From contig NZ_SODU01000002.1 of NCBI RefSeq assembly GCF_004366075.1, positions 496,001-560,000 on the forward strand: a stretch of 64,000 bases of DNA, in the 5' to 3' direction. How positions within the stretch are numbered: the first letter of the stretch is position 1; every line of letters starts with the position of its first letter. The notes under the pieces were generated by a model. It worked only from the letters and a program-made list of their open reading frames with translations. It had not been told where the DNA came from and did no database searches. Below are positions 25,580 through 27,355 of the stretch, in pieces. The position numbers were made by a program, and so were the translations under genes. This DNA comes from Kribbella pratensis. GTDB lineage: Bacteria > Actinomycetota > Actinomycetes > Propionibacteriales > Kribbellaceae.

Positions 25580-26035
25580 ATGTTTGCCGTGGATGCCATT
25601 GATCGCAATATCCTTGCCGTGCTCCAGGAAGACGGCCGGCTGACCGTCACCGAACTTGCGCAGCGGGTCGGGTTGAGTGCCGCGCCGTGTCATCGGCGGT
25701 TGCGGGAGCTCGAGCGGGCCGGGGTGATCCGCGGATACCGCGCGGTCGTCGACGGAGCGGCCGTCGGGCACGGGTTCGAGGTGCTGCTGGCGGTGACGAT
25801 GGACCGGGAGGAATCGGTCGCCGGGTTCGAGGCCGGGCTGGCCGAGATTGCCGAGGTGGTGCAGGCCGAGCGGCTGTTCGGGGAGCCGGACTACTTCGTC
25901 AGGGTCGTGACCGCGGACATCGCCGCGTTCCAGAAACTGCGCGACGAGCGGCTGGCGCGACTGCCGGGGGTGCAGCGGCTGACGTCCACCATCGTGATGA
26001 AGAAGGTCGTGGACAACCGGCCGCTGCCGACGTGA
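25580..26035 (+). CDS. Lrp/AsnC family transcriptional regulator
   Basis: A 151-aa regulator. Helix-turn-helix at residues about 5-50 (DAIDRNILAVLQEDGRLTVT, AQRVGLSAAPCHRRLREL), then the ligand-binding RAM domain (about 65-145: VLLAVTMDREE, FGEPDYFVRVV, STIVMKKVV). It would bind an amino acid and act as dimers of dimers. Good RBS (GAGGAATAAG) fixes the ATG. Divergence from a PQ-loop transporter follows the usual arrangement of an Lrp-type regulator controlling its neighbour. Confidence 0.95.
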   Translation: MFAVDAIDRNILAVLQEDGRLTVTELAQRVGLSAAPCHRRLRELERAGVIRGYRAVVDGAAVGHGFEVLLAVTMDREESVAGFEAGLAEIAEVVQAERLFGEPDYFVRVVTADIAAFQKLRDERLARLPGVQRLTSTIVMKKVVDNRPLPT

Positions 26036-26039
26036 ACGG

Positions 26040-26178
26040 TGTGGAAACTCGTCGGCTCAAACCTGAGTTATCCACAGATTTGAGCCAGTTTTGACCACAT
26101 TCAGTGGAGAACCATCACTGAACCTGGGGATAACTCCAACGAATCGGTGTGCACAACTGGGGATACCGGTGTGGATAA
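26040..26178. other. DnaA-box cluster
   Basis: Two perfect DnaA boxes, TTATCCACA at 26068-26076 (plus) and TGTGGATAA at 26170-26178 (its complement), bracket near-matches: TGTGGAAAC (26040-26048), TTGACCACA (26091-26099), TGGGGATAA (26125-26133) and TGTGCACAA (26148-26156). A 7-bp perfect dyad TTCAGTG-N9-CACTGAA (26100-26122) lies in the middle. The stretch is noticeably more AT-rich than its surroundings and holds no gene. DnaA binding is inferred from sequence; dnaA, dnaN and gyrB are not in the window. Confidence 0.75.
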
Positions 26179-26221
26179 CTCCGGCACTCCACCTCATGTG
26201 ACGCACAGGTGGGTGGCCTGG

Positions 26222-26482
26222 TCAGACCCACTGGGTGGAGACGACGAAGCCGACCGCGATCAGGCCCATGCCGATCAGCAGGTTCCAGTTGTTGAGGTCC
26301 TTCATCACCGGGATGTCCTGGCCGGCCACGTAGAAGACGACCAGCCAGGCGAGTCCGAGCAGCCAGCACGCCAGCATCAGCGGCGCGACCCACACGCGAC
26401 TGGTGGTACGCGGCTTCTTCGGGGTCTTCTCGGCCTTGACCTTCTCGGTCTTCTTCTTGGGGCGACTGCTCGACTCGGGCAC
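26222..26482 (-). CDS. crgA: Cell division protein CrgA
   Basis: An 86-aa membrane protein. The first 28 residues are Lys-rich and cytoplasmic (PKKKTEKVKAEKTPKKPRTT), followed by two transmembrane helices (about 30-52 and 64-84) joined by the conserved loop IPVMKDLNNWN. CrgA interacts with the divisome (FtsZ, FtsI, CwsA in mycobacteria) and inhibits early FtsZ ring formation in Streptomyces. Start is GTG with AAGGAG 8 nt upstream. Placement next to the DUF881 gene, trpG and pknB is the standard actinobacterial order. Confidence 0.96.
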   Translation of the reverse strand: MPESSSRPKKKTEKVKAEKTPKKPRTTSRVWVAPLMLACWLLGLAWLVVFYVAGQDIPVMKDLNNWNLLIGMGLIAVGFVVSTQWV

Positions 26483-26584
26483 GACTGAACTCCTTGTAAG
26501 GACGGACGCATAAGCTGACCGCGAGGACCTGGTAGGGGTCCGGTCCGGGTTAGCGTAGTGCAGAGAGCAATATGGAGATCACGG

Positions 26585-27355
26585 GTGCGTAGGTTGAGGC
26601 GGATTTCGCTGTGGCGTGCGGTCGCGCCGCTGGCGCTGCTGTGCGCCGGTCTGCTGTTCGCGACCAGCGCGACCAACGCCCGGGGCACCGACCTCCGGCC
26701 CAGCCGTAACACTACGCTCGCGGGCCTCGTGGAGGAACAGAGCCGGCGCAGCGCCAGCCTGGTCCGGCAGCACGCGGCCCTGACCCAGGACATCGAGAAG
26801 CTCCAGGAGCAGCAGGGCTCGATCGACCCCGCGCTGGCCAAGCAGCTCAAGGACCTGTCCGACGCCGTCGGCACCACGCCGGTCACCGGGCCGGGGCTGA
26901 CCGTGACGCTCAAGGACGCGCCGTCCCAGGTCGTCAAGGACAACCCGGACGTCGACGCCGACTGGCTGGTGATCCACCAGCAGGACATCCAGGCGGTGGT
27001 GAACGCGCTCTGGGCCGGCGGCGCGGACGCGATCTCGATCCAGAACCACCGGGTCATCTCCACCACCGGGATCAAGTGCGTCGGCAACTCCGTCGTACTG
27101 CACGGCGTCCCGTACCTCCCGCCGTACAAGATCACCGCGATCGGGGACCGGCGGAAGTTGCAGAAGGCGCTCGACGACTCGCAGTACATCGAGAACCTGC
27201 AGGACTACGTCGTGAAGTTCCAGCTCGGGTACGACGTGAAGAACGAGTCGTCGATCTCGATGCCGGCGTACGAGGGCACCCTGGATCTGCAGAGCGCGAC
27301 GGTCCCCGGGTTCCCGCGGACTCCCTCGACAAGCCCGACCGCCAGCGGGCGATAA
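26585..27355 (+). CDS. DUF881 family membrane-anchored protein
   Basis: A 256-aa protein with one N-terminal membrane helix (about residues 10-32), then a coiled coil (LAGLVEEQSRRSASLVRQHA ... IEKLQEQQ) and the DUF881 domain (PGLTVTLKDAP, DWLVIHQQDIQAVVNALWAGG, ADAISIQNHRV, LHGVPYLPPYKITAIGD). DUF881 genes lie beside crgA or sepF/fts genes in actinobacteria and are thought to belong to the division or envelope machinery; the function is unproven. GTG at 26585 is selected for GGAG 7 nt upstream; an in-frame GTG at 26558 is possible. Confidence 0.9.
   Translation: MRRLRRISLWRAVAPLALLCAGLLFATSATNARGTDLRPSRNTTLAGLVEEQSRRSASLVRQHAALTQDIEKLQEQQGSIDPALAKQLKDLSDAVGTTPVTGPGLTVTLKDAPSQVVKDNPDVDADWLVIHQQDIQAVVNALWAGGADAISIQNHRVISTTGIKCVGNSVVLHGVPYLPPYKITAIGDRRKLQKALDDSQYIENLQDYVVKFQLGYDVKNESSISMPAYEGTLDLQSATVPGFPRTPSTSPTASGR

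Follow-up and report, generated by a model that had tools for sequence, protein, structure and literature searches.

In Bacillus subtilis and Streptomyces coelicolor, clusters of DnaA boxes near oriC repress untimely initiation, as set out in the passages of PMC4585315 and PMC5742627 that deal with such sites, and the S. coelicolor clusters are cited as initiation repressors in a passage of PMC10950094 as well. The passages of the first two papers also describe the Escherichia coli site datA, a site near oriC which has DnaA boxes, lowers the level of active DnaA and requires an IHF site (the latter stated in PMC4585315), and the DARS sites, whose core is composed of three DnaA boxes including a head-to-head pair. 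DnaA boxes upstream of dnaA are involved in autoregulation in Streptomyces lividans and in the slow-growing mycobacteria, according to a passage of PMC8203912.

Here, we describe a DnaA-box cluster with a three-box core which has a constant place at the crgA 3′ flank, not far from dnaA. The regulatory DnaA-box cluster is a known kind of site. A description of a three-box core bound to crgA was not found in the open-licence literature, a scope outside which most subscription papers lie; nor was an open-licence paper found that contains both “crgA” and “DnaA boxes”, and we do not claim that the site is absent from print.

The window, i.e., the whole stretch of 64,000 nucleotides that was analysed, corresponds to positions C2:496001–560000 of the 8.39-Mb assembly of Kribbella pratensis (C1 and C2 denote contigs; plain positions refer to the window). 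The initial annotation placed a cluster of DnaA boxes between an Lrp gene and crgA; the intergenic position stands, but the cluster lies downstream of both genes, which converge on a gap of 186 bp. This gap contains two perfect TTATCCACA boxes, which are in opposite orientation as had been stated (26068–26076, plus strand, and 26170–26178, minus strand), and six weaker boxes at up to two mismatches to TTATCCACA, where at least four near-matches had been claimed. The eight boxes (two perfect, one with one mismatch and five with two) have their starts within 26040–26170. The G+C content of 26037–26222 is 0.54 versus about 0.66–0.71 in the 2-kb bins across the window, in agreement with the description of the gap as AT-richer non-coding DNA. 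The central dyad that had been pointed out (TTCAGTG at 26100–26106 and CACTGAA at 26116–26122) is present in the window but is not conserved in the relatives aligned (alignment A1). The features of the locus are collected in Table 1; box 3 is a near-palindrome, its minus-strand reading being TTGTGCACA at 26148–26156.

Table 1. Features of the Lrp–crgA gap and its flanking genes (window positions; fractions refer to the sequences of alignment A1).
Feature	Position	Strand	Evidence and remarks
Whole Kribbella element (model R1)	26031..26182	- (crgA strand)	nhmmer, alignment A1, model R1 matches
Three-box core (triad): tandem of boxes 1 and 2 with a spacing of 12 bp, followed after 11 bp by box 3, head-to-head	26147..26178	-	Module scan
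DnaA box 1, TTATCCACA, perfect	26170..26178	-	GTTATCCACA invariant in 21/21 aligned
DnaA box 2, GTATCCCCA	26158..26166	-	TCCCCAG invariant in 21/21
DnaA box 3, GTGTGCACA	26147..26155	+	TGTGCACA invariant in 21/21
DnaA box TTATCCCCA	26125..26133	-	TTRTCCCCA in 19/21
Weak box TTCTCCACT	26103..26111	-	TTCTCCAC in 13/21, TTATCCAC in 2, altered in the rest
Weak box TTGACCACA	26091..26099	+	Not conserved
Perfect box 26068–26076 (plus strand TTATCCACA) with conserved flanks	26057..26080	-	A1 columns
Distal box GTTTCCACA	26040..26048	-	TCCACA invariant; TTATCCACA in 4/21, TTGTCCACA in 2/21
crgA, 86 aa	26222..26482 (start 26482, end 26222)	-	PF06781, E 2.5e-30; element past the 3′ end
Lrp/AsnC-family regulator, 151 aa	25580..26035	+	Convergent with crgA

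The statement that the boxes are denser than expected by chance holds for their clustering and not for their number in the window as a whole. Five boxes with at most one mismatch occur window-wide versus 2.19 expected, which is unremarkable (five or more in 5 of 100 shuffles), and three of them fall inside the Lrp–crgA gap. The crgA cluster, in turn, has a score of 15, whereas 20 first-order Markov sequences, each 460 kb long, reach a maximum of 3–5, and it ranks first in C2:260000–719999, where the following clusters score 11, 9, and 8 and the dnaA–dnaN region scores 6. Scored with TT[AG]TCCACA boxes (TTGTCCACA taken as perfect), it reaches 18 and is still first, followed by a cluster upstream of dnaB at C2:331023 with 17. 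The genome contains 139 TTRTCCACA sites versus 43 for the reversed control, and the best clusters around the first 30 listed sites score 10 at most. Within the 460 kb and around these 30 sites, the crgA cluster is the top one, with a single near-equal, the dnaB-upstream cluster. Over this range, the comparison of densities which the initial annotation had named as a check is in favour of it.

Conservation of the element within the genus was analysed in 23 named crgA loci, 21 of them Kribbella-like (L038–L058, one titled Streptomyces) and two from Nocardioidaceae MAGs (L059 and L060). With the window element as the nhmmer query, a match was obtained past crgA in 20 of the 21 Kribbella-like loci; there was none in L053, where 5.2 kb past crgA is available, nor in the two MAG loci, although in L059 a triad of the class type described below is visible by eye. 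In alignment A1, comprising 21 sequences with the window included, the boxes hold invariant stretches (GTTATCCACA, TCCCCAG, TGTGCACA, AATCTGTGGAT, and TCCACA among others) while the spacers vary; the perfect box at 26068–26076 has conserved flanks, with AATCTGTGGAT and, at some distance, GTTT-A as the invariant parts (A1 columns 103–113, 121–124, and 126). The sequence-only model R1 recovers the 150-bp element in 38/38 genus genomes, with one strong match in each (E-value at most 5.6e-26 in 37 genomes and 2.1e-10 in G027). Across the 20 named loci that have the element, it is found at distances of between about 0 and 1.1 kb from the stop of crgA, and in five Kribbella loci an intact element is separated from crgA by 0.3–1.1 kb of DNA. 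Since this distance is variable, the element is probably kept for its own sake and not as a part of the crgA 3′ end. The CrgA protein of the window is up to 97–98% identical to that of Kribbella records. The record titled Streptomyces sp. SID13031 (L049, NZ_JAAGLV010000007.1) encodes a CrgA that is 92% identical to that of this Kribbella over residues 13–86, and its element aligns with the Kribbella elements; the name of this record looks wrong.

Outside the genus, it is the three-box core that is conserved. In 30 crgA loci of the class Actinomycetes, our own genome included, the best box cluster usually lies just past crgA and has a recurrent three-box pattern. This pattern was fixed on the 30 loci as a module of two tandem boxes 12–14 bp apart with a third box head-to-head 9–12 bp on, or the reverse complement of it, and then applied to 60 held-out loci, mostly of 12 kb, which represent 60 of the 82 class genomes with crgA that remained once the hypothesis-forming set had been taken out. 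In 55 of these 60, no module anywhere in the locus is better than one situated 0–300 bp past crgA, and the best modules have on average 2.9 mismatches of 27 versus 8.2–8.9 for six scrambled boxes. With at most five mismatches, a module is found in this interval in 52/60 loci versus 0/60 for each of the six scrambled boxes, and without a mismatch limit the scrambled boxes place their best module inside 300 bp in 1–19/60 loci; all these values are to be read as counts and not as probabilities because related genomes are not independent. Of the five loci in which the best module is not beside crgA, three belong to family f29; the other two are those of G166 and of G121, the latter with its module at a distance of 1.6 kb. 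The three f29 loci (L155, L158, and L162) come from reduced genomes of 1.3–1.4 Mb and the G166 locus (L160) from a 7-Mb genome; all four have crgA without a nearby DnaA-box module, which was either lost or never present, and other f29 genomes (L169, L171, and L180) retain it. In L190, L193, and L200, the modules at crgA are weak, with 6–7 mismatches.

The arrangement is also seen when pairs of boxes with at most one mismatch are counted in the 60 loci free of any pattern: tandem pairs are 13 bp apart in 31 loci and 12 bp in 8, and head-to-head pairs are 10 bp apart in 32/60 loci, 11 bp in 6, and 12 bp in 4, while tail-to-tail pairs show four spacings, once each. Among the 52 class modules, the head-to-head spacing is 10 bp in 39 and 9–13 bp in the rest, and the tandem spacing is 12–13 bp. 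The modal class spacing is 13/10 (tandem/head-to-head), and that of our own genome is 12/11, its triad being placed at C2:522147 (reverse, three mismatches) by the module scan of the 460 kb.

A strict consensus, TTNTCCACA-N4-TTRTCCMCA-N-TGKGGANAA with at most two mismatches, matches 39 of 118 whole Actinomycetes genomes, once in each, and gives no match for the reversed control. All 39 matches are located 17–243 bp past crgA, where 28 share the orientation of the gene and 11 have the opposite one, so that the consensus is a sequence definition which picks out the crgA flank alone in the genomes matched. In a sample of 119 genomes of the phylum, CrgA was found in 57, 47 of them outside the class, and 62 had no CrgA match at all. 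The crgA loci of 40 of these 47 genomes were analysed, and a module with at most five mismatches lies within 300 bp of crgA in 23 of them versus 0–1/40 for the controls, the other 17 loci having none; without a mismatch limit, the values are 32/40 for the real boxes and 5–24/40 for the controls. The core is kept while its spacing to crgA, the neighbouring DNA, and its orientation change. Since it is found at the same place in most of the sampled Actinomycetes, the crgA-flank site probably represents a shared, little-known control point of DNA replication in this class. In family f3 (G003, G010, G014, G017, G025, G032, G038, G044, and G052), two CrgA matches occur in or near one reading frame, which suggests a duplicated CrgA domain.

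The position of the element speaks against one of the functions proposed initially, a DnaA-controlled promoter of crgA linking replication to division. It lies past the crgA stop, i.e., downstream of the gene, and for this reason we rejected it as the crgA promoter; among the 56 held-out loci with a conserved ORF inside 4 kb, there are 52 where the first such ORF is convergent with crgA, and no sigma-70-like or promoter-like site was found in 25900–26600. The convergent setting, seen both in the window and in these 52 loci, could instead be read as that of a DnaA roadblock which terminates transcription between the two genes, the more so as DnaA boxes reportedly can stop transcription in one orientation, and as the sole terminator-like site found in 25900–26600 is a weak stem of five pairs (26018–26005, crgA strand), inside the end of the Lrp gene. 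However, the element remains intact in the five Kribbella loci where 0.3–1.1 kb separates it from crgA, the strict form is tied to crgA and not to gene ends generally, and both orientations of the module occur (28 and 11 of 39) whereas a roadblock would be directional; we thus consider a roadblock quite improbable.

A structured RNA or a terminator hairpin was rejected as well. Taken singly, the window sequence folds somewhat better than its shuffles (z −2.86, a fold as good being seen in 1 of 200 shuffles). Within genomes, there is no co-variation between box 2 and box 3: their identity is 0.799 within genomes versus 0.776 between them, and identical arms occur in 5 of 52 cases versus 3.3 expected. 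No Rfam match was obtained in the window, and the dyad is not conserved. Box 2 and box 3 are constrained as two DnaA boxes, not as a hairpin.

The remaining proposals concerned replication itself. In this strain, dnaA is located at C2:453768–455315, and the cluster is 66.7 kb away from it, which is 0.8% of the genome; with a crgA–dnaA distance of 54–75 kb in ten genus genomes, the neighbourhood is origin-proximal, as the initial annotation assumed from crgA and its surroundings. The idea of a secondary origin-like element was not supported. A secondary or relocated origin could be suspected from the dense cluster, its lower G+C content, and the lack of any TTRTCCACA in our own dnaA–dnaN gap. 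Nevertheless, this gap retains several weaker boxes, one perfect box is present within 1 kb past dnaA in six of nine other genus genomes, and the element, instead of adjoining dnaA and dnaN, is 66.7 kb from dnaA. The AT-richness of the element does not exceed that of dnaA–dnaN (the AT-richest 30-mer is 0.60 in both), and a simple pattern search revealed no DnaA-trio in either of them. The cumulative G-C skew is noisy and shows local minima around 460, 510, and 680 kb on contig C2, and the origin was therefore not placed by skew. We regard an origin at this site as barely conceivable.

The third proposal, a DnaA-titrating or timing site, has gained support: the element is kept in place throughout the genus, and its core in most of the sampled Actinomycetes, at an origin-proximal address. 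Conservation in relatives, another check named in the initial annotation, clearly turned out in favour of it. On balance, we favour the explanation that the element is a conserved, oriC-proximal, cis-acting control site which binds DnaA outside oriC, of the same kind as datA and the Streptomyces clusters, and which is neither a promoter nor an origin. The boxes are dense beyond chance outside dnaA–dnaN, and their place near oriC is conserved. A site taking up or resetting DnaA is suggested because a convergent gap without a promoter, an origin-proximal address, and conserved boxes come together here. DnaA binding and an effect on initiation are what we infer from the sequence. DnaA would occupy the core cooperatively, a third protomer joining a head-to-head pair; in Kribbella, it would spread from there onto the extra boxes. 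In this strain, where only 0.8% of the genome separates the site from dnaA/oriC, the site would be copied almost immediately upon initiation, and the doubled sites may then hold or inactivate DnaA and so delay the next initiation, as reported for datA and for the clusters of B. subtilis and S. coelicolor. The sign of the effect, a sink or inactivator rather than a reactivator, is the least certain step of this scheme. The same fixed address near the origin, the single strict-consensus copy in each of 39 genomes, and the vicinity of a division gene would also fit a landmark on the chromosome which serves the folding of the origin, segregation, or polar anchoring and at which DnaA is a structural protein; nothing specific speaks for such a role, and we consider it very unlikely.

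The S. coelicolor clusters near oriC, reportedly described by Smulczyk-Krawczyszyn et al. in 2006, are said to bear the names H24, H69, and D78. Like the crgA site, they are origin-proximal DnaA-box clusters outside oriC in an actinomycete; however, they are known as clusters of one species and are not known to have a core of three boxes that recurs beside crgA throughout the class. One of the three may be identical to the site at the crgA 3′ flank, since in family f22 (f22/g29), whose genomes are large, the distance between crgA and dnaA is 21–23 kb in three of the four genomes located and 55 kb in the fourth. datA, also a DnaA-box site near oriC, with an IHF site between its boxes 2 and 3, differs in layout from the crgA triad: in the two best 150-bp datA windows of strain MG1655, the boxes are arranged as +,+,+ and +,- with wide gaps, and no triad of the crgA type was seen in them.

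In topology, the core resembles DARS. At the MG1655 positions which we take to be the DARS1 and DARS2 cores, box I (+) is followed by box II (-) 14 bp on and box III (-) 12 bp on; as at the crgA site, there are three boxes, a head-to-head pair and a tandem box, in an intergenic position outside oriC. By analogy, the element may work like DARS: the head-to-head pair with its tandem box would assemble ADP-DnaA and speed up the release of ADP, yielding ATP-DnaA and promoting initiation. In a passage of PMC5742627, the head-to-head pair is named as prominent in DARS sites, and the tandem spacing of 12 bp recurs in 21 of the 23 modules of the other classes. The head-to-head spacing, however, is 14 bp in E. 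coli versus 9–13 bp at the crgA site (10 bp in 39/52 class modules), and the 14/12 core spacing is absent among all 75 modules (tandem 12–13 and head-to-head 9–13), although 14 bp was allowed; IHF/Fis regulatory parts belong to the E. coli sites as well. Because of the difference in spacing we do not file the element as DARS, and since a similar triad also occurs upstream of dnaA, an actinobacterial DARS appears unlikely to us.

The triads upstream of dnaA were revealed by a relaxed pattern, TCCACAN{6,7}TCCMCAN{1,5}TGKGGA, for which 119 places are listed, spread over 86 of the 118 class genomes, whereas the reversed control gives no match. Fifty-nine of these places (58 genomes) adjoin crgA. 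The other class places for which dnaA was located (n = 37) include 26 upstream of dnaA, one downstream, and 10 elsewhere, a share which is not an unbiased rate because dnaA was located in chosen genomes (29 plus 30 more complete assemblies, and 40 taken mostly for having matches); 23 of the 60 non-crgA class matches sit in genomes without a located dnaA, and a few of those counted as elsewhere may in fact be near dnaA where a circular contig is joined end to end. The triad lies 64–384 bp before the DnaA profile match in 23 of the 26 (an example is G133:C1:1924044–1924070). Outside the class, there are 29 such places, of which 23 are upstream of dnaA, 18 of these 23 about 0.9–1.1 kb before the DnaA profile match. 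The crgA core of our own genome falls outside the relaxed pattern, and the two relaxed matches of this genome lie elsewhere in it.

The three-box arrangement thus has two main addresses, upstream of dnaA and at crgA, and its strict 13/10 form is seen at crgA alone. As 26 of the 37 non-crgA class matches are upstream of dnaA, the arrangement may be a general DnaA-binding form. The dnaA-upstream boxes known from autoregulation resemble the crgA site in that a triad of the same topology is present there in many of the genomes checked, but their spacing is, by eye, mostly of the 12/12 type as opposed to 13/10 at crgA, and the gap of the window has no promoter-like site.

These likenesses allow a bolder suggestion, to which we give only tentative credence: most Actinomycetes would have one dedicated three-box DnaA-switch of DARS topology at the crgA 3′ flank, which resets the nucleotide state of DnaA, and not just its number, once the origin region has been copied, and which has its architecture in common with the dnaA-upstream site. 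If this is true, the synthesis and the activity of DnaA would be under the control of the same kind of complex, formed at the dnaA-upstream and crgA sites. How actinobacteria limit initiation to one per cycle is poorly understood; neither Hda nor SeqA, both regulators in E. coli, is known from this group. A conserved DnaA site at a fixed address next to crgA makes it possible to compare one small deletion, or one mutated box, across many genera with crgA left untouched.

Other DnaA-box clusters of the same genome deserve description. The dnaB-upstream cluster (L064:11024–11173, i.e., C2:331023–331172) is nearly as dense as the crgA cluster; the ORF of dnaB, the replicative helicase gene near it, has DnaB N and C domains together with a LAGLIDADG domain, an intein-type composition, and its intein splicing match is under the curated cut-off. 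The uniqueness of the Kribbella element was rejected because weak partial R1 matches (E about 1e-4 to 1e-2) occur elsewhere in genus genomes. In 9 of the 38, one such match is found 156–188 kb from the main match, for which reason a related second cluster probably exists in the genus; a few further weak matches lie on other contigs or on the opposite strand, overlapping the main match. In our own genome, the dnaB-upstream cluster is the candidate for this second cluster, and the weak R1 matches may be its relatives. Two more clusters, at C2:485643 (L035:5644–5793) and C2:283082 (L062:3083–3232), score 11 each with TT[AG] boxes and are 30 kb and 171 kb from dnaA. At C1:2258818–2258853 (L037), two perfect TTGTCCACA boxes are present in inverted order, 27 bp apart, which is the sole pair of perfect boxes within 150 bp besides the crgA site among the matches listed.
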